Of a DNA stretch of 64,000 nt, positions 21,515 through 32,588 are shown piece after piece. The stretch covers positions 1 to 64,000 of the forward strand of contig JACQDV010000083.1 in the NCBI GenBank assembly GCA_016200915.1, given 5' to 3'. A program made the position numbers and the translations under genes. The first letter of the stretch is position 1. Every line of letters begins with the position of its first letter. Source of the DNA: Sphingobacteriales bacterium. GTDB taxonomy: Bacteria > Bacteroidota > Bacteroidia > Chitinophagales > Chitinophagaceae. A model generated the notes under the pieces. It was not told where the DNA came from. It saw only the letters and a list, made by a program, of their open reading frames with translations, and did no database searches.

Positions 21515-22801
21515 ATGAATTCCCGCCGCAAATTTTTACAGGGTATTGCATCAACAGCAGGTGCATTTAGTTTTTTATCCATCGCTAACAATAGTTTCGC
21601 TAATGATGCATTGAAAAAGTTTGACCGCTTTCATGCATTACAGCCCAACGATGCATTGAACGATGAAGATTTTTGGAACTGGGTTAAAGAATCTTATACG
21701 GTTTCGCCCAATTTGCTCAATTTGAATAATGGTGGAGTAAGTCCTCAACCTAAAGTAGTACAGGATGCACATATCCGTTACTATCAATACTGCAATGAAG
21801 CCCCGTCGTATTACATGTGGCAGATATTAGACCAGGGAAGAGAAGCATTACGAAATAAACTGGCAGATTTAGCTGGTTGCAGTGCGGAAGAAATTGCTAT
21901 TAACCGTAATGCAACCGAAGGTTTAAATACAGTGATCTTTGGGTTGAATTTAAAAGCCGGTGATGAAGTAGTGCTGACGAAGCAGGATTATCCAAACATG
22001 ATGAATGCTTGGAAGCAAAGAGAAAAAAGAGATGGTGTAAAATTAGTTTGGCTTGATTTGCCATTGCCAATGGAAAATGAAGAAGAAATCGTAAGAAAAT
22101 ATGTAAATGCATTTACAAACAAAACAAAAATTGTTCATGTAACACATTTGATCAACTGGACAGGACAAATAATGCCGGTAAAAAAGATTGCACAGGAAGC
22201 ACACAAAAGAGGAATTGAAGTAATTGCAGATGGGGCACATACTTTTGGTCACTTTGATTTTACTATTCCGGATTTGGAGTGCGATTACTTTGCTACCTCT
22301 TTACATAAATGGTTAAGTGCACCATTCGGCAGCGGAATGATGTATGTAAAAAAAGATAAAATCAGAAATGTGTGGGCATTATTAAGTAATGGAGAACCGG
22401 ATGGACCAGATATAAAAAAGTTTGAAAGTTTAGGCACCCGTTCATTTGCCAGCGAAATGGCTATTGGAGCTGCGGTAGATTTTCATAATGGTATTGGCAG
22501 CAAACGCAAGGAAGAAAGATTACGGTTCTTAAAAGATTATTGGGTGGATAAAGTAAAAAGTATGCCCAAAGTTTCCTTTATGCAGCCAAAAACCACGCAC
22601 ATGAGTTGTGCTATTGCCACCATTGCCATTGAAGGGAAAAAACCTGGTGAAGTATCTTCTGCTTTATTTGATAAATATAAAATTCATACCGTAGGTATTG
22701 AATGGGAAAATATACATGTGGTACGTGTTACACCACATGTATATACTTCACCAAAAGATATTGACCGCTTAGTTACGGCAATAAAAGAAATTGCTAAATA
22801 A
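21515..22801 (+). CDS. Class V aminotransferase-fold PLP protein with Tat signal
   Basis: From the ATG at 21515 the protein has 428 residues. It begins MNSRRKFLQGIAS, a clear twin-arginine leader, followed by a hydrophobic segment ending near NNSFA, so it should fold with its cofactor before export. The rest is a fold-type I PLP enzyme of the cysteine desulfurase/isopenicillin-N epimerase group. The cofactor aspartate is in DGAHTFGHFD and the Schiff-base lysine is Lys265 in SLHKW. The reaction is not predictable. An ATG at 21479 would hide the Tat signal behind 12 hydrophobic residues. It overlaps the converging DinB-like gene by 8 bases. Confidence 0.88.
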   Translation: MNSRRKFLQGIASTAGAFSFLSIANNSFANDALKKFDRFHALQPNDALNDEDFWNWVKESYTVSPNLLNLNNGGVSPQPKVVQDAHIRYYQYCNEAPSYYMWQILDQGREALRNKLADLAGCSAEEIAINRNATEGLNTVIFGLNLKAGDEVVLTKQDYPNMMNAWKQREKRDGVKLVWLDLPLPMENEEEIVRKYVNAFTNKTKIVHVTHLINWTGQIMPVKKIAQEAHKRGIEVIADGAHTFGHFDFTIPDLECDYFATSLHKWLSAPFGSGMMYVKKDKIRNVWALLSNGEPDGPDIKKFESLGTRSFASEMAIGAAVDFHNGIGSKRKEERLRFLKDYWVDKVKSMPKVSFMQPKTTHMSCAIATIAIEGKKPGEVSSALFDKYKIHTVGIEWENIHVVRVTPHVYTSPKDIDRLVTAIKEIAK

Positions 22802-23234
22802 GCCTGCGGTGATAATTTACCTGCCCTAAATGATAATTAAGATGACCTGCTAAATGCAGCAGGAAATATTGTGTATTGATAGGTTCACCAAACACATGCA
22901 GAGGATATTCTTTCTCTAATTCCTTTTTGCTTGCCTGTTCCAGTGTGTCAGTTACCACAGCAATGGTTGCTTCTATTTCTTCAATCAATTTAGTACGGGC
23001 AATATTTTTTAATTTGAATTCGGCTTCCCGGTTACGTATATAAGCTGATTCGCCCATAACCGCACCAATAAAATGCTGCAGGTTGCCACATAGATGGAGA
23101 CAAAGATTTCCGGCACTATTGCTGATGCCTTCTTTTACTGCCCATATTTTTTCTTCGTCTGTGTAAAGATTGATTTCTTCTTTCAGTTTGTTCAAATCCC
23201 TTGTAAAGAGTTGTATTAATTGTTGTGTTATCAT
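22794..23234 (-). CDS. DinB-like/DUF1572 four-helix protein
   Basis: This 146-residue, mostly helical protein resembles the DinB/DUF1572 superfamily, whose members often hold a divalent metal between three histidines and include thiol-dependent transferases. Histidines occur in LCLHLCGNLQHFIG and in LLHLAGHLNYHLGQV, the two usual places. The start at 23234 (MITQQLIQLF) is preferred over one six codons upstream because the extra residues are unlike the family. Substrate unknown, presumably cytoplasmic. It is convergent with the aminotransferase gene and shares its last 8 bases. Confidence 0.8.
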   Translation of the reverse strand: MITQQLIQLFTRDLNKLKEEINLYTDEEKIWAVKEGISNSAGNLCLHLCGNLQHFIGAVMGESAYIRNREAEFKLKNIARTKLIEEIEATIAVVTDTLEQASKKELEKEYPLHVFGEPINTQYFLLHLAGHLNYHLGQVNYHRRLI

Positions 23235-23252
23235 GGTGCAAAGTTTATGCAA

Positions 23253-23521
23253 TGGCGTGAGTTGAAAAAATATTTATCATGATAAAAGGTGAAAAAACGG
23301 TATTAAATAAGGGGAAAAGACGGTTGGTAGTTATTGGAGGCTATGTTAAGTTTACATTACAGAATGAATTAGTGATGTAAAGAATTTTTTATTATTAAAG
23401 ATATTAGTATATTAGTTAACAGAGTCTCCCTTCCTTATTTAAACTCATTCCATTTCCTTAAAACTATTTAATCGTTAGACCAAAGATAACCAGTATGAAA
23501 TTTAAAATGGATATTCCTTTT
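23253..23521. other. AT-rich spacer without a gene
   Basis: No open frame with credible codon content was found. The stretch between the DinB-like gene and the hairpin element at 23522 is AT-rich and shows no clear promoter or terminator. It marks the left edge of the accessory-looking region. Confidence 0.4.
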
Positions 23522-23665
23522 AGAGGCTGTCTAAAAATAAAATTTTGATTCACCATGCAAGCCATTCGTGGGGACACGAATGGCTGCACACTGTAGTGGG
23601 CTGTGTCCCCACAGCCCACTTTAAGTTCAATAAGAAATTAAAGCAATCATTTTTAGACAGCTTCT
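23522..23665. mobile_element. MITE-like element with GAGGCTGTC-type ends and two internal hairpins
   Basis: The ends are 17-base inverted repeats with one G-T pair (23522-23538 with 23649-23665, core GCTGTCTAAAAAT). Inside are two perfect hairpins: GCCATTCGTG (23561-23570) with 23575-23584, loop GGGA, and AGTGGGCTGTG (23595-23605) with 23610-23620, loop TCCC. The two loops are complementary, and GGGGACAC/GTGTCCCC could pair instead of the hairpins. No coding content. AGAGGCTGTC-type ends are common on insertion sequences, and an element at 59846-59955 shares them, which suggests a non-autonomous relative. Confidence 0.6.
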
Positions 23666-23824
23666 TCAACATCGGAAAAATTAATGTTTTCAAATTCTTT
23701 CTTTAAAGTCAATTCAACATAATGAATTAACGGGTTCTTTCGCCTGTACCTTAATGATTGCCACATAATTTATTAAAGCCGGGAAGCCGAAAACGGATTT
23801 AGAGTAGGCGTTAAATAATTTACG

Positions 23825-25129
23825 ATGCTTAATAATGTAGTTCTTGATGTAGTGATAGGTCTTGTGTTTATATACCTCTTATATAGCTTACTCGCAACTA
23901 TTGTACAGGAAATGATTGCGTCCAGGTTTGCATTGAGGGCAAGAATGCTGCAAAAGGCTTTGCGCAGGATGCTTGAAGATGATGCGGGTAAGGGAGCGAA
24001 CGAACCTAATACTTATTCTGCCGCTAATTATTTACGTGAAGCAAGGGATAACACTAAATGGTTTTTTAAACCATTTTCTTCAGCGGATTCGTTGTTATAC
24101 AAATTTTATTCTCATCCATCAATAAAATACCTTGGTGAAGGTAAATTGTATAAGAAACCTTCATACCTGCATGGGCACAATTTTTCCCAAACACTTATTC
24201 ATTTATTAAGGGGAGAAGATTATGATGGACGTAGCCAGAATGAATCTGAATTAATACGGCAAGCACTCGAAAAAAACACATTAGATATTAATAACGAAAC
24301 ATTAAAGCAGTTGAAATTGCTTTTTGCAGATTCCCGCCAGGATTCCTATTTATTTAAACATAAGCTTGAAGACTGGTTTGAAGAAACTATGCAAAGAACT
24401 ACCGGCTGGTATAAAAAACAATCACAGGTAATACTTATTATTATTGGATTTGTATTTGCTGTAGCTTTTAATGTTGACTCCATTGCTATTGCCAAAATTT
24501 TAATGAAAGATAAAAAGGCACGGGAGCAACTGGTACAATTAGCTGTTTCCAGGCAAAAGGAATACGGGGCAATAGTTGATTCAGTTAAAAAGATTACTGT
24601 TATAAGAACTGAAACAAAAACAGACAGCAGTACAGTAACTAAAATTGATTCTATAATTCAATCTAATCCTTCAGATAAGTATCTTGATTCTGCATATAAT
24701 ATGCTCAGGGGGGATGCTGAGACCGTACAGGGCATACTTGGGTTAAGAGGGATAGCTTCTAAAAAGGATTCCGGGGTTTGTAAAGAATTGCTGGCGGGTT
24801 TTGATTCAGCTATTAAAAAAACAACCGATTCGGAAAAAAGGAATCAATTAATTGATGCAAGAAAAAAGGCATCAGAATGCTGCCTCACAAGTGTTCAGTC
24901 TTCTTCTCCTTATCAAACTAACAGCTTTATTGTTTTTATAGGCTGGTTAATTACAGCTTTTGCCATTTCATTGGGCGCCCCTTTTTGGTTTGATCTCCTT
25001 AATAAACTGGTAAAATTAAGAGAGTCTGGCCCACAGGCTAAGAACACATCAGTGATAGATAATGCTGTCGTAACTGATAGCGGAAGCAATCCGGTTAAAG
25101 ACAATAACAATCTTGATATAAAAGGATAA
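23825..25129 (+). CDS. Unknown membrane protein with three predicted helices, first gene of six-gene operon
   Basis: The 434-residue protein has hydrophobic helices at about residues 5-26, 200-222 and 366-386. Between the first and second lies a helical, charged domain of about 170 residues. Between the second and third lies a loop with many Lys, Asp and Ser. The ends of the membrane parts carry the striking motifs TGWYKK (before helix 2) and SLGAPFWFDLLNKL (382-395, after helix 3). I recall similar sequences in unrelated bacterial genomes but know no function. It starts an operon in which the next gene follows after 6 bases. It could be a membrane scaffold or channel for the linked hydrolases; that is inference. 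Confidence 0.75.
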   Translation: MLNNVVLDVVIGLVFIYLLYSLLATIVQEMIASRFALRARMLQKALRRMLEDDAGKGANEPNTYSAANYLREARDNTKWFFKPFSSADSLLYKFYSHPSIKYLGEGKLYKKPSYLHGHNFSQTLIHLLRGEDYDGRSQNESELIRQALEKNTLDINNETLKQLKLLFADSRQDSYLFKHKLEDWFEETMQRTTGWYKKQSQVILIIIGFVFAVAFNVDSIAIAKILMKDKKAREQLVQLAVSRQKEYGAIVDSVKKITVIRTETKTDSSTVTKIDSIIQSNPSDKYLDSAYNMLRGDAETVQGILGLRGIASKKDSGVCKELLAGFDSAIKKTTDSEKRNQLIDARKKASECCLTSVQSSSPYQTNSFIVFIGWLITAFAISLGAPFWFDLLNKLVKLRESGPQAKNTSVIDNAVVTDSGSNPVKDNNNLDIKG

Positions 25130-25135
25130 AATATT

Positions 25136-26308
25136 TTGAAAGCAATACTTAAATACCCGTTATACAGGAGACCTCAGCCTACTAATGAGGTGGACGCAAA
25201 TGGTTATTTGCCTAAGGGTTCTGTAATAGAAGTAGAAAGGATATACTCAGGAAAATATCTTGATGGAATTAGTATTTGGTTTTATTCAAATGACGGATTT
25301 TATTACTGGGGTGGAGGATTAAAAGTGCCAGAAGGAGAAGCAATGTTAGATTGGGAATCATTGAATGAAGAAACAAAATCAGCGATATTATCAAGTATAA
25401 TAAATGATGAAGCATACAGAATAGAGAAAAAAGTAATTGGCTTACTCGGTTATGGAATGGGATATAAAAATGATAATAAAAACGAAGGGTTGGCATTAAC
25501 CATTTTTGTGGATGCCAAAATCCCGAAGGAAAATTTTGATAAAACTATTTCATATACTGGTATTAAAAACATTCCCGTGGATATAAAGCCGGTTCGAAAA
25601 ATTGAGCATCAACAGTATGTAACAAATGGAATTAAAGACCTGCAACCTGATAAAGGCTCACCAATGCAAATGGGGGGGAGCATATCAGTAACTGATAGTA
25701 ATGATTATGGCACAAGAAGTTTTATCGTAAGAGACAAAAATAAAAAAGCCTATTTGATGACATGTTTTCATGTTTTATTAGATCGATTTCGAAGTAAAGG
25801 ACAATATCCCTTTCCAGGAAATATTGCCACTATTGAGGCGAATTACCCTTGCAAGCTGATGAATAACGCAGGGGTAACACTACGAAAAGAAGTGGTAGTG
25901 ATAGGTAAATATAATAATAACTATGATTTTGCATTGATTACTCTTACTGACGACACAGACCTTATTAATGCTTTTGATAACCGCTCGTTTAACGGTTTTT
26001 ATATAAGTGATAATATACAAACATTATTAGGAAAAGAGTTAGTTATGGGGGGAGCTACCTCCAAATTGCAAATGGGAAAAGTATTAGAGACTAAATCAAC
26101 AATTTTTGTAGGGAGAGAGAATAAACAATTTGATAATGTAATTGTAACAGAGAAAATTTCCATGCCTGGAGACTCGGGAGCTCCTGTAATAGATGATCAG
26201 GGCATGGTAGTCGGGATTATTATAGCCGGTAGTGTGGAAGAGAAAAGGTCATATATACTGCCAATACATAATATAGTATTTCAACAAGGATATACCATCA
26301 CTAATTAA
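25136..26308 (+). CDS. Trypsin-like serine protease with N-terminal SH3-like region
   Basis: The 390-residue protein begins at TTG (25136), preceded by AAGGAT about 10 bases upstream. No ATG occurs before codon 70, and the N-terminal domain would otherwise be lost. Residues 1-65 look like a small SH3-type beta domain. Residues 95-155 form a pro-region-like domain (GLALTIFVDAKIP, NIPVDI) of the kind seen before bacterial trypsin-fold proteases. The catalytic triad is complete: His212 in TCFHVL, Asp264 in NYDFALI and Ser347 in PGDSGAP. There is no signal peptide, so it probably acts in the cytoplasm. Its target is not known. Confidence 0.85.
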   Translation: MKAILKYPLYRRPQPTNEVDANGYLPKGSVIEVERIYSGKYLDGISIWFYSNDGFYYWGGGLKVPEGEAMLDWESLNEETKSAILSSIINDEAYRIEKKVIGLLGYGMGYKNDNKNEGLALTIFVDAKIPKENFDKTISYTGIKNIPVDIKPVRKIEHQQYVTNGIKDLQPDKGSPMQMGGSISVTDSNDYGTRSFIVRDKNKKAYLMTCFHVLLDRFRSKGQYPFPGNIATIEANYPCKLMNNAGVTLRKEVVVIGKYNNNYDFALITLTDDTDLINAFDNRSFNGFYISDNIQTLLGKELVMGGATSKLQMGKVLETKSTIFVGRENKQFDNVIVTEKISMPGDSGAPVIDDQGMVVGIIIAGSVEEKRSYILPIHNIVFQQGYTITN

Positions 26309-26319
26309 ACTATAGGAAT

Positions 26320-28185
26320 ATGAAACTATTTACTTTAACTATTCTAATTTTTCTCACTTGTACTACCTCATTTAGCCAGATTTTTCAAATTAATTGTAAA
26401 GCTATAAAAGGAAAATCGGGGCCGCAAAATTTTGAAAGAGGGAAAGACTCTTTGCATATAAAATTGGAAGGAAAAGATACTGTTGAGATTAATAAATTAT
26501 TAAAAAATTCCAAGTTAGGTGGAGAAAACCTTTATGATATTGGAAATGTATTTGCAAAAGCAAAAAATAAAAATTTTAGTGTTGACAGTATAATAAAAAT
26601 TCGTAAGCCGTCTGACTCAGCAGAAGTGACCCTTCTTTTGACAAGTAAGATTCCTGATGATACATCTATTAAGTCAGTTAAATTAATTTTCAGTTGCGAT
26701 GGTAAGAAGGGTGATACAACGATTTTGAATTTAGTCGCTGAAAAAATGGATGATGAAAAAAGAGATAATCATATAACTAATTGGCCTGCCAGTAAACTTT
26801 GTAGCGCTATACCTTCCTATGCTTTTATTAATAAAGATATGTTTGACGAGAGCATTGATGATTTTGCTTTAAAAAGCCAAAATTGTTATGTCAGTAAATA
26901 CAAACGAAAGCTGCCAGGTGAGTATATACTTTTATATGATTTTAGAAAAGGAGATTATTCCCCATTAAAAAAGATTGCCAGAAAGGCATCAAAAATTAAG
27001 CCGAAGAATCCGTGTGTTGGAGAAGACGGTAAAACCCCAATCGAAAATGCGAGAGTTGAATTTTACAGATTAAAAAAATCTCCATTTTTTTCTCCTTCTG
27101 TTGGTAGTCAAGTGAAGATTGAGTTAATGAATTATTTAGATACTGTACCGTTAAATCTGGATGTTACATACAGGGATAATTTTCTTGAAGAAGAATCCCG
27201 ATTTAGTTCCTTGCTCAATACATTTGGTGTCAACGAAGCTAAAGCGGGTAAAAAACAAGATACAACATCGGAAAAAGAACCTAAGACTGAACAAGAGAGT
27301 GCGAAATCAATAACTGATGAACAAAAAAATCGTTTGATACAATTAAATCAAGAGTTGTGTTATTATTTAAATCACTTTAAGTATAACTCTTTTACTGCGT
27401 CTTTTCACGAAGAAAACCTTAAAACAATTGAGGCAAACATCAGAAGTGCCTTCCATATTGGTGATAGCATTTCAATTAATGATGGGTTATCTGAAATTTT
27501 TGGCAACGATGAAACAGGAAAAATGTATTTGAAGAGCGTTCAGAACAGGTTTGATCGAATAAGTGGCCTTCAGTCTATTTTATTTACTGCTTTTAAAGTA
27601 AAAGACCGTGACAATATTATTATCAGATTTAAAGACAATAAAAACCAAGTAAGGAAAGAAGAAGAATTGAGAATTTCAAACGGATTTAAGGTTGATTTTA
27701 GTTCCGGGATTTTTCTTACTGGTTTAAAGGACGAAACATACATTTTTAAAGACACATCAGTTAGTTATACGCCATCAGGGGGGGATCCAAGAGATACATC
27801 TGGAAAATATATAATCAGAGAAAATACAAGCCCAAGAAAACTTGGTTTTGGTATATTAGTTCATGGTTATCCAAGGTTGAGTTCAAATTATAATCTTGGT
27901 ATTACAACCGGTTTGTCAATAAATACTAATACAGAGGTTAATTTAATGGCAGGCTTGAGTTTAATGTTAGGATCAGTAAGAAGAATTGTTTTCTCTGGAG
28001 GATTTATTTGGGGTAAAGCCAATCGATTAAGCAACTCAGTAAAAGAAGGATTTTTTAGAAAGGAAAATACAAATACCAGTGCTCCCGTTTTTTACTCAAC
28101 GCCCAATAATGAGGTTCCTGTTGTAAGCGATTGGTATCGTAGTTGGTTTATAGGGTTGAGCTATAATTTCACTTCTAATCGTTAA
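26320..28185 (+). CDS. Secreted protein with predicted C-terminal outer-membrane barrel, unknown function
   Basis: The 621-residue protein starts with a signal peptide (ends SFSQ). The middle is a long, lysine-rich region without recognised motifs, including a charged linker around residues 310-340 (KKQDTTSEKEPK). The last 115 or so residues alternate hydrophobic and polar residues in short strands (LGFGILVHGY, YNLGITTGLS, EVNLMAGLSL, RIVFSGGFIWG) and end WFIGLSYNFTSNR, as in small outer-membrane barrels. It thus may link the outer membrane to the periplasm. The gene looks more AT-rich than its surroundings. It follows the protease gene by 11 bases. Confidence 0.7.
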   Translation: MKLFTLTILIFLTCTTSFSQIFQINCKAIKGKSGPQNFERGKDSLHIKLEGKDTVEINKLLKNSKLGGENLYDIGNVFAKAKNKNFSVDSIIKIRKPSDSAEVTLLLTSKIPDDTSIKSVKLIFSCDGKKGDTTILNLVAEKMDDEKRDNHITNWPASKLCSAIPSYAFINKDMFDESIDDFALKSQNCYVSKYKRKLPGEYILLYDFRKGDYSPLKKIARKASKIKPKNPCVGEDGKTPIENARVEFYRLKKSPFFSPSVGSQVKIELMNYLDTVPLNLDVTYRDNFLEEESRFSSLLNTFGVNEAKAGKKQDTTSEKEPKTEQESAKSITDEQKNRLIQLNQELCYYLNHFKYNSFTASFHEENLKTIEANIRSAFHIGDSISINDGLSEIFGNDETGKMYLKSVQNRFDRISGLQSILFTAFKVKDRDNIIIRFKDNKNQVRKEEELRISNGFKVDFSSGIFLTGLKDETYIFKDTSVSYTPSGGDPRDTSGKYIIRENTSPRKLGFGILVHGYPRLSSNYNLGITTGLSINTNTEVNLMAGLSLMLGSVRRIVFSGGFIWGKANRLSNSVKEGFFRKENTNTSAPVFYSTPNNEVPVVSDWYRSWFIGLSYNFTSNR

Positions 28186-28207
28186 CATGTAACTAAAAAA
28201 TATTTTT

Positions 28208-28702
28208 ATGACCGAACCTCAACGCCAACAACGCAACGCCGACAGGCTGTTGGAACTCTTTCCAACCTTCCACCAGCGGATAGCTAAAGTAATTGCCGAT
28301 TTGGAAGCAATAAATGTTCGTCCAAGAATTCAGGATGCCTATCGCAGCCCGGCCGATCAATTAAAGGCCTTTAACTCGGGTCACTCCAAATTAAAATTCG
28401 GATTCCATAATGTTACTGGTGCTAATGGGCAAAAAGAAAGCCTTGCGGTGGACATGCTTGATGATGACAGTCCTTTAAAAACATCCACAGCCTATGTATT
28501 AAAATTAGCATGGGCTGCTGAAAAAAATGGGTTAATGACTGGCATCCGGTGGGGTGTGCCGGTACGTTTAATTGTGGCAATAGATAAAGCCATCACTGAA
28601 AAAGACTGGAATGCACCGGTAAAAATAGGATGGGACCCCACCCATATTCAACCGGTTGGTATAACTGCTGCCGATGCAAAAGCAGGCAAAAGACCTTTAT
28701 GA
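28208..28702 (+). CDS. M15-family (D-Ala-D-Ala/L-Ala-D-Glu type) peptidase
   Basis: The 164-residue protein has the M15 metallopeptidase layout: a substrate arginine region (DAYRSPADQLKAF) and the zinc ligands His67 (FGFHNVT), Asp82 (LAVDML) and His146 (DPTHIQ). Relatives cut peptide cross-links in cell walls and include phage endolysins and VanY-type enzymes. There is no signal peptide, so export would need another route, or the enzyme acts inside the cell as phage lysins do before release. It lies 22 bases after the barrel protein gene and 21 before the SGNH gene, in the same operon. Confidence 0.82.
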   Translation: MTEPQRQQRNADRLLELFPTFHQRIAKVIADLEAINVRPRIQDAYRSPADQLKAFNSGHSKLKFGFHNVTGANGQKESLAVDMLDDDSPLKTSTAYVLKLAWAAEKNGLMTGIRWGVPVRLIVAIDKAITEKDWNAPVKIGWDPTHIQPVGITAADAKAGKRPL

Positions 28703-28723
28703 ATTTAATGATAATATTTATTT

Positions 28724-29989
28724 ATGTCAGATAACAGCAAACAAGAATTTATACAGGATAAAAAAATACTCATTGATGCTTTATTGGCCAATACCATTTC
28801 GCATAAAGATTTATTGGTATTGTGTAACACAGCGGTGGCCAATGATTTAAGGGAAATTGTAGTGAGGGTGTTTGATATGGATGAAAAATCGTTACTAAAA
28901 AAAGCGGCCGTTACAGGGTTTACTGCTTATGTAAATAAATTAAAAAATAACCAGCGGTCATCAAGGTATAAATCAAAAATAAAAAGCGATAGTGAAAAAT
29001 TCCGTACCAACCCCTTGTACAAAATTGTTTTGGCCGAAGGAGATTCCTGGTTTAACTACCCGCTTATATTGAGTGATGTGCTCGACTTTGTATCAATGGA
29101 ACCTAATATCGCCCTGTACAGTGTTGCCGAAGGGGCCGATTGGTTTTTGAATATGATAAATAAAAGAGAATATGTGGAAGGTCTCGGCATCCATAATCCG
29201 CATTTTTTTCTGTTGAGCGGTGGGGGAAATGATATTGTTGGTTTAAGCCGTGTGGCTGTAATTGTAAACAGGAGCGAAGATGATACCCCATTTGCGTCAA
29301 ATGAATGGGTAAGGTTGTTGGTTAAAAGATATTTTGATGATGATGATATAGAAAATAAGATGGAACTGCCTCAAACAGCTTCATTCAGCAAAGAACGTTT
29401 ATTAAGAGGTGTAAAGCATCTCAATAAAGATTACTTCGCACTGCTGATGCTTTTTAAAGTGCAATACCATTATGTTATAGGCAAACTGCTTATTGGTGAA
29501 AAGGATAACGATGGTAAGTTTAAAAATTCAAAATATCGCAATCTTAAAATTATTACACAGGGCTACGATTATCCCATACCTGACAGCAACGATGGATTAG
29601 GTATTGATTTATCAAAATGGTATGTGCCTTTACTCAGAAAAGTGAATCATGGTAATTGGTTACGAATGCCATTGTTAATAAAGGGGGTGCCTGAAAAAAA
29701 TCATAAAGATGTAATGTATGCAATGATTTTTCTTTTTAATGAAATGATGATAGATGTGGCTAAAGATTTTTGTGAAATTATAAAAGAACATTATCCGGAA
29801 AATCCGGCGCCAAGAGTTTTTCATGTAGATAACCGGGGGATAGTGCCTGAAAGCGGATGGACAGATGAGTTACACCCCACCCCAAAATATTTTCAAAAAG
29901 TAGCCCGGTTGTTTATAAAATGTATTAATGAAATTAAACCTGTTGATAAAAAATGCCAGTTTGTTTATTCTGTTAATGATTTAATTTAA
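28724..29989 (+). CDS. SGNH-fold hydrolase with helical N-terminal extension
   Basis: The 421-residue protein is an SGNH (GDSL-type) esterase or lipase. The nucleophile is Ser108 in AEGDSWFNYP, the oxyanion residues are in SGGGND (165-170) and the catalytic pair is Asp381/His384 in DELHP. The N-terminal 100 residues (LIDALLANTISHKDLLVLC, then LREIVVRVFDMD) are predicted helical and unlike ordinary SGNH enzymes. They might be a docking domain for a partner in the operon. No signal peptide, so probably cytoplasmic. It may act on lipid or acyl esters; the substrate cannot be read from the sequence. Confidence 0.82.
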   Translation: MSDNSKQEFIQDKKILIDALLANTISHKDLLVLCNTAVANDLREIVVRVFDMDEKSLLKKAAVTGFTAYVNKLKNNQRSSRYKSKIKSDSEKFRTNPLYKIVLAEGDSWFNYPLILSDVLDFVSMEPNIALYSVAEGADWFLNMINKREYVEGLGIHNPHFFLLSGGGNDIVGLSRVAVIVNRSEDDTPFASNEWVRLLVKRYFDDDDIENKMELPQTASFSKERLLRGVKHLNKDYFALLMLFKVQYHYVIGKLLIGEKDNDGKFKNSKYRNLKIITQGYDYPIPDSNDGLGIDLSKWYVPLLRKVNHGNWLRMPLLIKGVPEKNHKDVMYAMIFLFNEMMIDVAKDFCEIIKEHYPENPAPRVFHVDNRGIVPESGWTDELHPTPKYFQKVARLFIKCINEIKPVDKKCQFVYSVNDLI

Positions 29990-29993
29990 AGCT

Positions 29994-30494
29994 ATGAAAA
30001 TATTAAATATATTTTTTTTGCTGGTTATACTTGGAGCCATAGTTGCTAAATTAGTAACATTTAACGAGCTGTCCTCAAATGGTGTAACAGGCTATAGTTA
30101 CTGGTGCTTTAACTGGACGTTTAATGTTACAAAGGCTAATAGCATTATTGTGTTCTGGAAGGAAAATTCAACTACCGCATATGTCAATAAGCTACTGTTT
30201 TTCGATTTTATTTTTATCATTGCCTATACACTATTCCTTTGCAACCTTTCTTATAACATGCTTCAGCAGCAAAACCGGCTTTATCTTAATATTTGGCTCC
30301 GCATGGGTATAGGCTGCATACTGCTGGCTGCTTTGTTAAACCTGGTGCAGGATTATTTTATTCACATGGCGCTGGATTTAAAACATACCTGGGGTTTTAT
30401 GCCATTTATTGTTTGTACTAAATGGTTTTTGGTTTTTTTGGGCGTTGTACCCATCATCGTTTCAGGCTTTTTAAAACCCCGTCAAACGGTTTAA
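29994..30494 (+). CDS. Small four-helix membrane protein, last gene of the operon
   Basis: The 166-residue protein has hydrophobic helices at about 3-22, 70-87, 102-120 and 136-157, with a loop between the first two that holds aromatic residues (GYSYWCFNWTFN). I do not recognise a family. It begins 4 bases after the SGNH hydrolase stop and is almost certainly translated with it. As with the first gene, its role is presumably to hold or serve the enzymes at the membrane, but this is inferred from position alone. The next 186 bases carry the rpsA promoter. Confidence 0.68.
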   Translation: MKILNIFFLLVILGAIVAKLVTFNELSSNGVTGYSYWCFNWTFNVTKANSIIVFWKENSTTAYVNKLLFFDFIFIIAYTLFLCNLSYNMLQQQNRLYLNIWLRMGIGCILLAALLNLVQDYFIHMALDLKHTWGFMPFIVCTKWFLVFLGVVPIIVSGFLKPRQTV

Positions 30495-30680: not shown

Positions 30681-32588
30681 ATGTCAGAAAACGAAATTCT
30701 TAACTCAAACGCTGAAGGACAGGAGTCTGCAGTGGTGGCTGAGCCAACGCTTGCAGCTACAGCGTCAACAAATGTACCTGTTCAAACCGCTCACGACGAT
30801 TTCGACTGGAGCGTTGACAAACGCAATGTTACTTCTTACAGCAAAGAAGAAAAAGCAAAGTATGATACTGTTTACGAAGGAACTTTCAAACAAGTTACCG
30901 ATGGTGAAATGGTAGAAGGCATTGTAGTAGGTGTTACTAAAACAGATGTGGTGATCAACATCGGTTTTAAAAGCGATGGTTTAATCAGCGCTAACGAATT
31001 CCGTGACCTTGTTGGTTTAAAAACCGGCGATGTAGTGGAAGTAATGGTAGTAGAAAAAGAAGACAGGGAAGGTAATCTTCACCTCAGCCGCAGACAGGCC
31101 CGCATTACCCGTGCATGGCAGCGTATTGTTGAAGTGCACAAAACCGGCGAAGTGGTTACCGGTATTGTTACCAGCAAAACTAAAGGTGGTTTAATTGTGG
31201 AAGTATTTGGTATGGAAACATTCTTACCAGGTTCTCAAATTGACGTTAAGCCGGTAACAGATTACGATCAGTTTGTTGGTAAAACGATGGAGTTTAAAGT
31301 AGTTAAGATCAACGAAACCATTAAGAACGCTGTAGTATCTCACAAAGCACTTATCGAAAGCGATATCGAAGCACAACGTGCAGAGATCATGGGCAAACTC
31401 GAAAGAGGTCAGGTGCTGGAAGGTACTATCAAGAATATTACCGACTTCGGTGCTTTCATGGACTTAGGCGGATTAGATGGCTTATTATACATAACTGATA
31501 TCAGCTGGGGACGTATCTCTCATCCTTCTGAAGTATTGAAGATGGATCAGAAACTGAAAGTGGTTGTATTAGACTTTGATGATGATAAAAAACGCATTAG
31601 TCTTGGTCTGAAACAATTAACTCCTCATCCATGGGATACTTTACCGGAAACAATCAAAGAAGGTGAAGTAGTAAAAGGCAAAGTGGTAAATATCGAAGAC
31701 TACGGTGCATTCTTAGAAATTATGCCTGGTGTGGAAGGTTTAGTTCACGTAAGCGAAATTACATGGGCTAACACTCCAATCAACGCTAAAGAGTTCTTCA
31801 AACTGAACGATGAACACGAAGCGAAGATTGTAACGCTGGATAAAGAAGCCCGTAAGATGAGCTTATCTATCAAGCAAATGACACAAGACCCATGGAGCAA
31901 TATTGAAACTAAATTTGCTGTTGAAAGCCGTCATAAAGGACTGGTGAAAAACATTACTCCTTATGGTGTGTTTGTTGAATTATCAACTGGCATTGGTGGT
32001 ATGATCCACATCAGCGACCTTAGCTGGTTAAAACGTTTCAACCACCCAAGTGAATACACTAAGGTTGGACAGGAAATTGAAGTGATCATCCTCGGTATTG
32101 ATAAAGAAAACCGCAAACTTCAGTTAGGTCATAAACAATTAGAAGAAGATCCCTGGAATGCTTTACAGGATACATTCGCTATCGGAACTATTCACGAAGG
32201 CACTGTAACCCGTAAAGATGAAAAAGGTGCTATCGTTTCATTGCCTTACGGTTTAGAAGGATTTGCTCCTAACCGTCACTTAGGTAAAGAAGATGGTAAA
32301 ACTGTAGTGGCTGATGAAACAGCACAGTTTGTGGTGATTGAATTCGATCGTAACGAAAAACGTATCGTATTAAGTCACACCCGCATATGGGAGCAGGTAA
32401 AAGCTGATGAGAAAGAAGCCGAGAAGAAAGAAAAAACAGCTGAAGTTGCCCGTACTAAGAAAGCGGTGAAAGACATTCAGGGCAAAGTTGAAAAAACAAC
32501 TTTAGGTGACCTGGGTGTACTGGCTGAACTGAAGAAGAAAATGGAAGGTGATGCAGCTGGTTCTAGTGACGAAGCTAAAAGTGAGTAA
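30681..32588 (+). CDS. rpsA: 30S ribosomal protein S1
   Basis: S1 binds mRNA and helps it onto the 30S subunit. In Bacteroidota, which mostly lack strong Shine-Dalgarno sequences, this is probably important. The 635-residue protein starts with an acidic, alanine-rich stretch, then has six S1 (OB-fold) repeats from about residue 55 to 580. The clearest are TIKNITDFGAFMDLGGLDGLL, VVNIEDYGAFLEIMPGVEGL and VKNITPYGVFVELSTGIGGM. A lysine/glutamate-rich tail follows. Length and repeat number fit the family. The gene has a consensus promoter and a terminator of its own. Confidence 0.96.
   Translation: MSENEILNSNAEGQESAVVAEPTLAATASTNVPVQTAHDDFDWSVDKRNVTSYSKEEKAKYDTVYEGTFKQVTDGEMVEGIVVGVTKTDVVINIGFKSDGLISANEFRDLVGLKTGDVVEVMVVEKEDREGNLHLSRRQARITRAWQRIVEVHKTGEVVTGIVTSKTKGGLIVEVFGMETFLPGSQIDVKPVTDYDQFVGKTMEFKVVKINETIKNAVVSHKALIESDIEAQRAEIMGKLERGQVLEGTIKNITDFGAFMDLGGLDGLLYITDISWGRISHPSEVLKMDQKLKVVVLDFDDDKKRISLGLKQLTPHPWDTLPETIKEGEVVKGKVVNIEDYGAFLEIMPGVEGLVHVSEITWANTPINAKEFFKLNDEHEAKIVTLDKEARKMSLSIKQMTQDPWSNIETKFAVESRHKGLVKNITPYGVFVELSTGIGGMIHISDLSWLKRFNHPSEYTKVGQEIEVIILGIDKENRKLQLGHKQLEEDPWNALQDTFAIGTIHEGTVTRKDEKGAIVSLPYGLEGFAPNRHLGKEDGKTVVADETAQFVVIEFDRNEKRIVLSHTRIWEQVKADEKEAEKKEKTAEVARTKKAVKDIQGKVEKTTLGDLGVLAELKKKMEGDAAGSSDEAKSE

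Follow-up and report, generated by a model that had tools for sequence, protein, structure and literature searches.

The window analysed here, a stretch of 64,000 nucleotides from the genome of a Sphingobacteriales bacterium, contains a compact group of six open reading frames, all on the plus strand and separated from one another by 6, 11, 22, 21 and 4 bp, which are denoted A to F below. A (23825..25129) is a protein of 434 aa with three predicted transmembrane (TM) segments and a C-terminal GAPFWFDLLNK motif. B (25136..26308), which begins with a TTG codon, combines an SH3-like domain (approximately residues 1-75) with a trypsin-like protease domain. C (26320..28185) has a hydrophobic, signal-peptide-like N-terminus, which suggests secretion, and a C-terminal β-barrel predicted from its sequence pattern. 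D (28208..28702) is an endolysin-like peptidase of the M15 type, E (28724..29989) is an SGNH hydrolase of the EGDSWF family, and F (29994..30494), the partner of E, is a protein of 166 aa with about four predicted TM segments. B, D and E lack signal peptides, their N-termini not being strongly hydrophobic. In these respects the preliminary description of the locus, which had reported a tight six-gene operon of two membrane proteins, a secreted protein and three hydrolases without signal peptides, is confirmed. The catalytic residues that it listed are likewise present in B (H212/D264/S347), D (H67/D82/H146) and E (S108/D381/H384), with one reservation: across the E family, S108, the GGGND block, E382 and H384 are invariant, while position 381 is either Asp or Asn, so that the role of D381 as the third catalytic residue is doubtful. 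B is recognized by Trypsin_2 (Pfam, E 2.4e-8) and RT-Protease_XI (PADLOC, E 1e-9), and A, C, D, E and F have no above-threshold match in Pfam, NCBIfam or PADLOC. Sequence searches of the PDB with A, D, F and the barrel proteins that occupy the position of C at other loci yielded nothing useful.

The six genes lie between a DinB-like gene on the minus strand (22794..23252) and rpsA on the plus strand (30681..32588), which encodes ribosomal protein S1; both flanks are conserved and outside the system. Left of the island, and also outside the system, is a MITE-like element of 146 bp whose terminal inverted repeats are 17 nt long (23521..23666, no strand assigned), described as such earlier and represented in the same genome by a 94% identical copy (L121:4895-5038). 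The earlier impression that the island was inserted between housekeeping genes holds as well: two genomes of the same genus, G396 and G395, retain both flanks at the same site (85-88% identity for the DinB-like gene, 91-96% for rpsA) and differ in what lies between them. G396 carries a calcineurin-like phosphoesterase and D, and G395 a 91-aa beta protein, a secreted barrel protein and a short GH19 protein, the first two of which resemble, by inspection, the genes that follow A at three other loci (L030, L026 and L041). Immediately before the A gene is a leader element (23768..23826, plus strand; core CCGGGAAGCCGAAAACGGATTYAGAGTAGGC). Each of the three species has such a segment, about 50 bp long, just upstream of its first cassette gene, and G396 has another before D; the copies in the two sister species are at L106 13529-13582 and 14777-14836 and at L107 6874-6839. 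As no other strong match was detected in the 724 kb scanned, the leader appears to be specific to this locus. The site between the DinB-like gene and rpsA is thus a hotspot that gathers modules.

Relatives of A were detected in 28 of the 395 sampled Bacteroidota genomes and in 16 of 61 genomes of close relatives, with none in the two genomes of the same genus. Hydrolases encoded directly 3' of A share the module of approximately 75 aa that forms the N-terminus of B; there are 14 such proteins at 12 loci, the window's own among them. At the 11 other loci the trypsin-like domain is exchanged for a subtilisin-like (S8), GH25, GH19, GH46 or amidase domain, such that six catalytic domains in all (trypsin, S8, GH25, GH19, GH46 and Amidase_2) are fused to the same SH3 module. 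The closest relative, L076, illustrates this pattern: identity to the window is 62% for A and 59% for the SH3 module, the catalytic domain is S8 rather than trypsin, and the barrel protein is unrelated, which indicates that both the catalytic domain and the barrel partner are exchangeable. A profile search with the SH3 module yielded eight matches in 7 of the 395 genomes, and seven of the eight adjoin A. The profile was built from A-adjacent proteins, so that this figure shows the module to be uncommon elsewhere and is not an independent measure of the association. The AlphaFold2 model of the module (pLDDT 76) has as its three best PDB matches the SH3-like wall-binding domains of fungal muramidases (probability 1.00, E 0.006-0.035).

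Other neighbours of A include patatins, caspases, amidohydrolases, M19-like proteins and peptidoglycan-binding proteins. Degradative enzymes account for 21 of 75 neighbours, compared with 1 of 75 control ORFs taken from those loci (Fisher p=2.5e-6), a comparison whose queries were drawn in part from the neighbour set and so favour that set. Independent Pfam scans agree: among the 25 families listed for each set, S8 (9), Amidase_2 (6) and PG_binding_1 (4) appear for the neighbours of A and none of these for the controls. On this evidence, the neighbourhood of A is not a matter of chance. On a Hymenobacter plasmid (L067:994-13768), a homologue of A is accompanied by a DNA/RNA non-specific endonuclease, an amidase and a protein combining trypsin and S8 domains, an arrangement that links the loci of A to the NucA-trypsin systems. 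At L082:5606-8358, the genes after A encode an amidohydrolase and an M19-like protein that has no signal peptide; an M19-like gene is also located upstream of the E-F pair in Pedobacter (L012, L019-L021).

A itself has three predicted TM segments, is large (434 aa) and matches no holin family. Its AlphaFold model (pLDDT 59) is too poor for a structure search. A role as an immunity protein was considered and rejected: the match to Imm30 is below threshold (E 0.049), and a single family would have to guard against unrelated enzymes. For the barrel protein C, the C-terminal part is common to five other Bacteroidota proteins, some barrels of this type occurring alone; it has no detectable homology to the barrel proteins that hold the same position at other loci.

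D has no Pfam match, and its assignment to M15 is based on the motif, weak matches to endolysin PHROGs (E 0.018) and a phage-like relative. The latter (L105:5001-5486), the only relative of D found in viral contigs, is 50% identical and retains the motif residues; on its phage-like contig it sits between tail genes and a gene for a small protein, where a lysis gene is normally found. The motif, this relative and the missing signal peptide together identify D as a signal-less peptidoglycan hydrolase, its activity being predicted. The ortholog at the same site in G396 is 84% identical, with a dN/dS of about 0.06 at saturated dS, which indicates that D is an older resident of the site, maintained by purifying selection.

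A scan with E retrieved 27 loci. Of the 19 Bacteroidota loci at which the contig continues beyond E, 18 have a homologue of F immediately 3' of it, commonly with a 4-bp overlap, and such pairs also occur alone. The E profile has only weak matches in the PDB, all to esterases. In several relatives the SGNH domain is fused to other enzymes, namely to Amidase_3 and M15 (L071, L075), to Amidase_3, M74 and S8 (L074), to Amidase_2 and a caspase (L060, L062) and to trypsin (L058, L072). Thus, the combination of SGNH, M15 and trypsin-like domains recurs in other phyla, either fused or in neighbouring proteins, and this recurrence supports a joint function of D, E and B. The Amidase_2-caspase-SGNH proteins (L060:9232-13140, L062:9585-13436) are approximately 1300 aa long, and that of L062 adjoins a gene for a STAND-like NTPase. 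On a Geminocystis plasmid (L072:1468-9989), genes for a trypsin-SGNH protein, GH19, TPR, an amidase, a murein endopeptidase and a di-haem peroxidase stand in a row. EAD1-trypsin (L061) and SLATT_2 (L057) are found beside relatives of E. A and E are nearly missing from viral contigs, with one relative of A and three of E in IMG/VR. This scarcity, along with the chromosomal flanks on both sides, rules out a prophage or phage lysis cassette as the identity of the whole island.

Do the six genes form a system that recurs, as had been surmised? In part they do: A is found with hydrolases, E with F, and A and E share an operon, as in the window, in Runella (L003) and in a member of the Chlorobiota (L026). 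A fixed block of all six was not found, and a single conserved system is ruled out by the separate recurrence of its modules. The island comprises at least three modules, A-B-C, D and E-F, and we infer that it was built from the resident D plus the modules A-B-C and E-F. The gene composition and the swapping of modules are well supported, and the hotspot, the missing signal peptides and the association with degradative enzymes are likewise observed directly.

We infer function, from storage and triggering to passage with the help of A and lysis as the outcome, along the following lines. The reading that we favour, with a probability of roughly 0.45, is that of a modular, polymorphic island of lytic effectors encoded on the chromosome. 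Its signal-less hydrolases would be made and stored in the cytoplasm; once triggered, for instance when a phage infects or the envelope is damaged, they would be directed at the envelope, which they would reach with the help of the 3-TM protein A. There B would attack protein, positioned on peptidoglycan by its SH3 domain of the wall-binding type; D would attack peptidoglycan, as GH25, GH19, GH46 and amidase would in the relatives; and E would probably act on lipids or envelope esters. B may, in addition, process partner proteins. The combined attack would lyse the cell, resulting in altruistic defence or lytic release of its contents, and the outer-membrane barrel proteins (C or its analogues) and F might anchor, gate or protect. 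Exchange of modules at the hotspot, behind the common leader, would provide sister species with different payloads.

Several lines of evidence argue for a lytic island: the six exchangeable catalytic domains after A, the tie between the SH3 module and A, and the swap of payload in sister species; the match of the SH3 model to wall-binding domains of muramidases, the endolysin-type domains and the relative of D at a phage lysis position; the relatives of E that are fused to amidase, M15, caspase or trypsin or lie beside EAD1-trypsin, SLATT, YLATT or a STAND-like NTPase; and the lack of any match to TssC or a sheath in the present genome (see below). GH25, GH19, amidase and M15 are common endolysin domains. 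The idea of a stored set of lytic enzymes, advanced in the preliminary description, accordingly survives in part, in that the signal-less set matches the gene content of the relatives and the island between housekeeping genes is variable. Proteolytic triggering, the other element of that idea, is unsupported as it was formulated: with GH25, GH19, GH46 or amidase in the place of B in the relatives, a protease is not obligatory beside A. Against a lytic island stand the size of A, which exceeds known holins, and the quality of its model, which leave a role as pore or conduit putative; the presence in some relatives of enzymes with no obvious lytic role (phosphoesterase, amidohydrolase, M19-like proteins, peroxidases); and the many homologues of A that lack a hydrolase neighbour. 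The six-gene island is also without a spanin, a sensor NTPase, an EAD or a nucleotide-signalling gene. A further proposal, which we offer tentatively as a possibility, is that of a hitherto undescribed, polymorphic, cell-encoded lysis system, in which a generic 3-TM protein A would serve swappable SH3-hydrolases (protease, muramidase, chitosanase, amidase) together with outer-membrane barrels, with payloads swapped at one hotspot behind a common leader, and would, when called for, kill the cell itself or those around it.

Lytic release in the manner of the type 10 secretion system (T10SS) accounts for part of the same evidence. Under this scenario, A would be holin-like, D or the SH3-hydrolase endolysin-like, and C would act in place of spanins, with B and E as cargo that is set free when part of the population lyses and that digests or poisons neighbouring cells. 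A generic membrane protein with exchangeable endolysin-type enzymes, the resemblance of D to a gene at the phage lysis position and the signal-less GH19, GH46, S8 and SGNH partners are compatible with it; but A is far larger than a holin and poorly modelled, no spanin is present, and A is nearly missing from viral contigs, so we consider this scenario unlikely. Similarly doubtful is protease-gated immunity of the EAD/STAND/caspase kind, in which B would cleave zymogens (D, E or A) on infection. Activation of nucleases by proteases is established for other defence systems (PMC12799240), relatives of E are accompanied by EAD1-trypsin (L061), caspase and amidase near a STAND-like NTPase (L062), SLATT (L057) or YLATT with trypsin and caspase (L070, where the SGNH match is inside the caspase-family protein), and L067 combines A with the trypsin-S8 protein, the amidase and the upstream endonuclease gene; the island in the window, however, has no NTPase, EAD or nuclease, and wall hydrolases fill the protease position in several relatives.

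Delivery of antibacterial effectors by a contractile injection system (CIS) is quite improbable. Signal-less amidases, muramidases, lipases and proteases are typical of T6SS effectors, and the repertoire described here resembles them. In two related genomes (L043 and L056) a homologue of A lies upstream of an eCIS operon (DUF4255-like, sheath, two tube genes and spike), and at L058:2222-7310 a gene for an SGNH-trypsin fusion precedes genes for a CIS tube and a VgrG-like spike, so that injection may operate in other genomes; these three are the only loci near CIS genes among those examined. The 96 contigs of the present genome contain no match to TssC (PF17541) or to an eCIS or phage sheath, and the presence of either does not track A (sheath in 10 of 19 A-carrying and 9 of 19 A-less genomes, TssC in 7 of 19 and 4 of 19). 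The contact-dependent killing envisaged earlier is therefore unlikely in this genome if it is to proceed via T6SSiii or eCIS, and cargo of either system finds no support there. Finally, a routine role in envelope maintenance, or an operon in which unrelated enzymes came together by chance, is very improbable in spite of the A-like genes, C-type barrels and E-F pairs that occur alone, given the patchy distribution of A and its absence from same-genus genomes, the swap of payload at one site, the tie of SH3 modules to A and the enrichment in degradative enzymes.

If the lytic-island reading is correct, a modular lysis or immune apparatus would be present in many members of the Bacteroidota and in some of the Pseudomonadota, Cyanobacteriota and Chlorobiota. 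Its core protein, A, belongs to no above-threshold family of Pfam, NCBIfam or PADLOC. The apparatus would draw endolysin-type enzymes, SGNH hydrolases, caspases and trypsin-like proteases together into a single network. The hotspot of the sister species, where site and leader are alike and the payload differs, would be a ready experimental system. In the literature searched, which consisted largely of open-access papers, neither A nor the SH3-hydrolases were found to be described, nor were SGNH enzymes in systems of this kind.

The island does not present the full defining set of any of four known kinds of system, namely System 3, type 10 secretion, polymorphic toxins and protease-gated nucleases. 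In System 3 (NucA-trypsin-S8 with EAD1; Kaur et al. 2020, eLife e52696, PMC7159879), trypsin-like or S8 peptidases are coupled to degradative effectors, lysozyme- and papain-like domains are proposed to act against peptidoglycan, and TM segments are present in several cases; neither SGNH/GDSL nor M15 appears in the main text of that paper. The island resembles System 3 in its trypsin-like peptidase (B, Trypsin_2), with S8 in the same position in its relatives, and differs from it in having no NucA nuclease, EAD1 or STAND (none of the six proteins matches a nuclease family in Pfam, NCBIfam or PADLOC, or an EAD in Pfam) and in possessing A, the SH3-like module, the barrel protein C and the SGNH-4TM pair. 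Nuclease-protease pairs (Tuck et al. 2025, PMC12799240) have in common with it a trypsin-like protease beside a potential effector, B matching the RT-Protease_XI models of PADLOC; unlike them, the island contains neither an MBL-fold nuclease nor a protein fused to a defence enzyme. The T10SS, a phage-derived cassette of holin, peptidoglycan hydrolase and spanin that releases exoproteins (PMC10101115), is similar in that a membrane protein stands beside a peptidoglycan hydrolase without a signal peptide, and other signal-less enzymes could serve as cargo. It is dissimilar in that the island has no recognisable holin or spanin, A has 434 aa, the SH3 module is on a protease and the families are unrelated by sequence; none of the six proteins matches a spanin family, C and F being the only candidates for that role. 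As for polymorphic toxins (Zhang et al. 2012, Biol Direct 7:18, PMC3482391), the island has no trafficking domain or signal peptide and no recognised cognate, variable immunity gene, A being conserved while the catalytic domains vary. What it shares with them is the diversity of the island and a constant N-terminal domain followed by swapped C-terminal catalytic domains, as seen in the window and L076, where the SH3 modules, 59% identical, precede trypsin in the one and S8 in the other.
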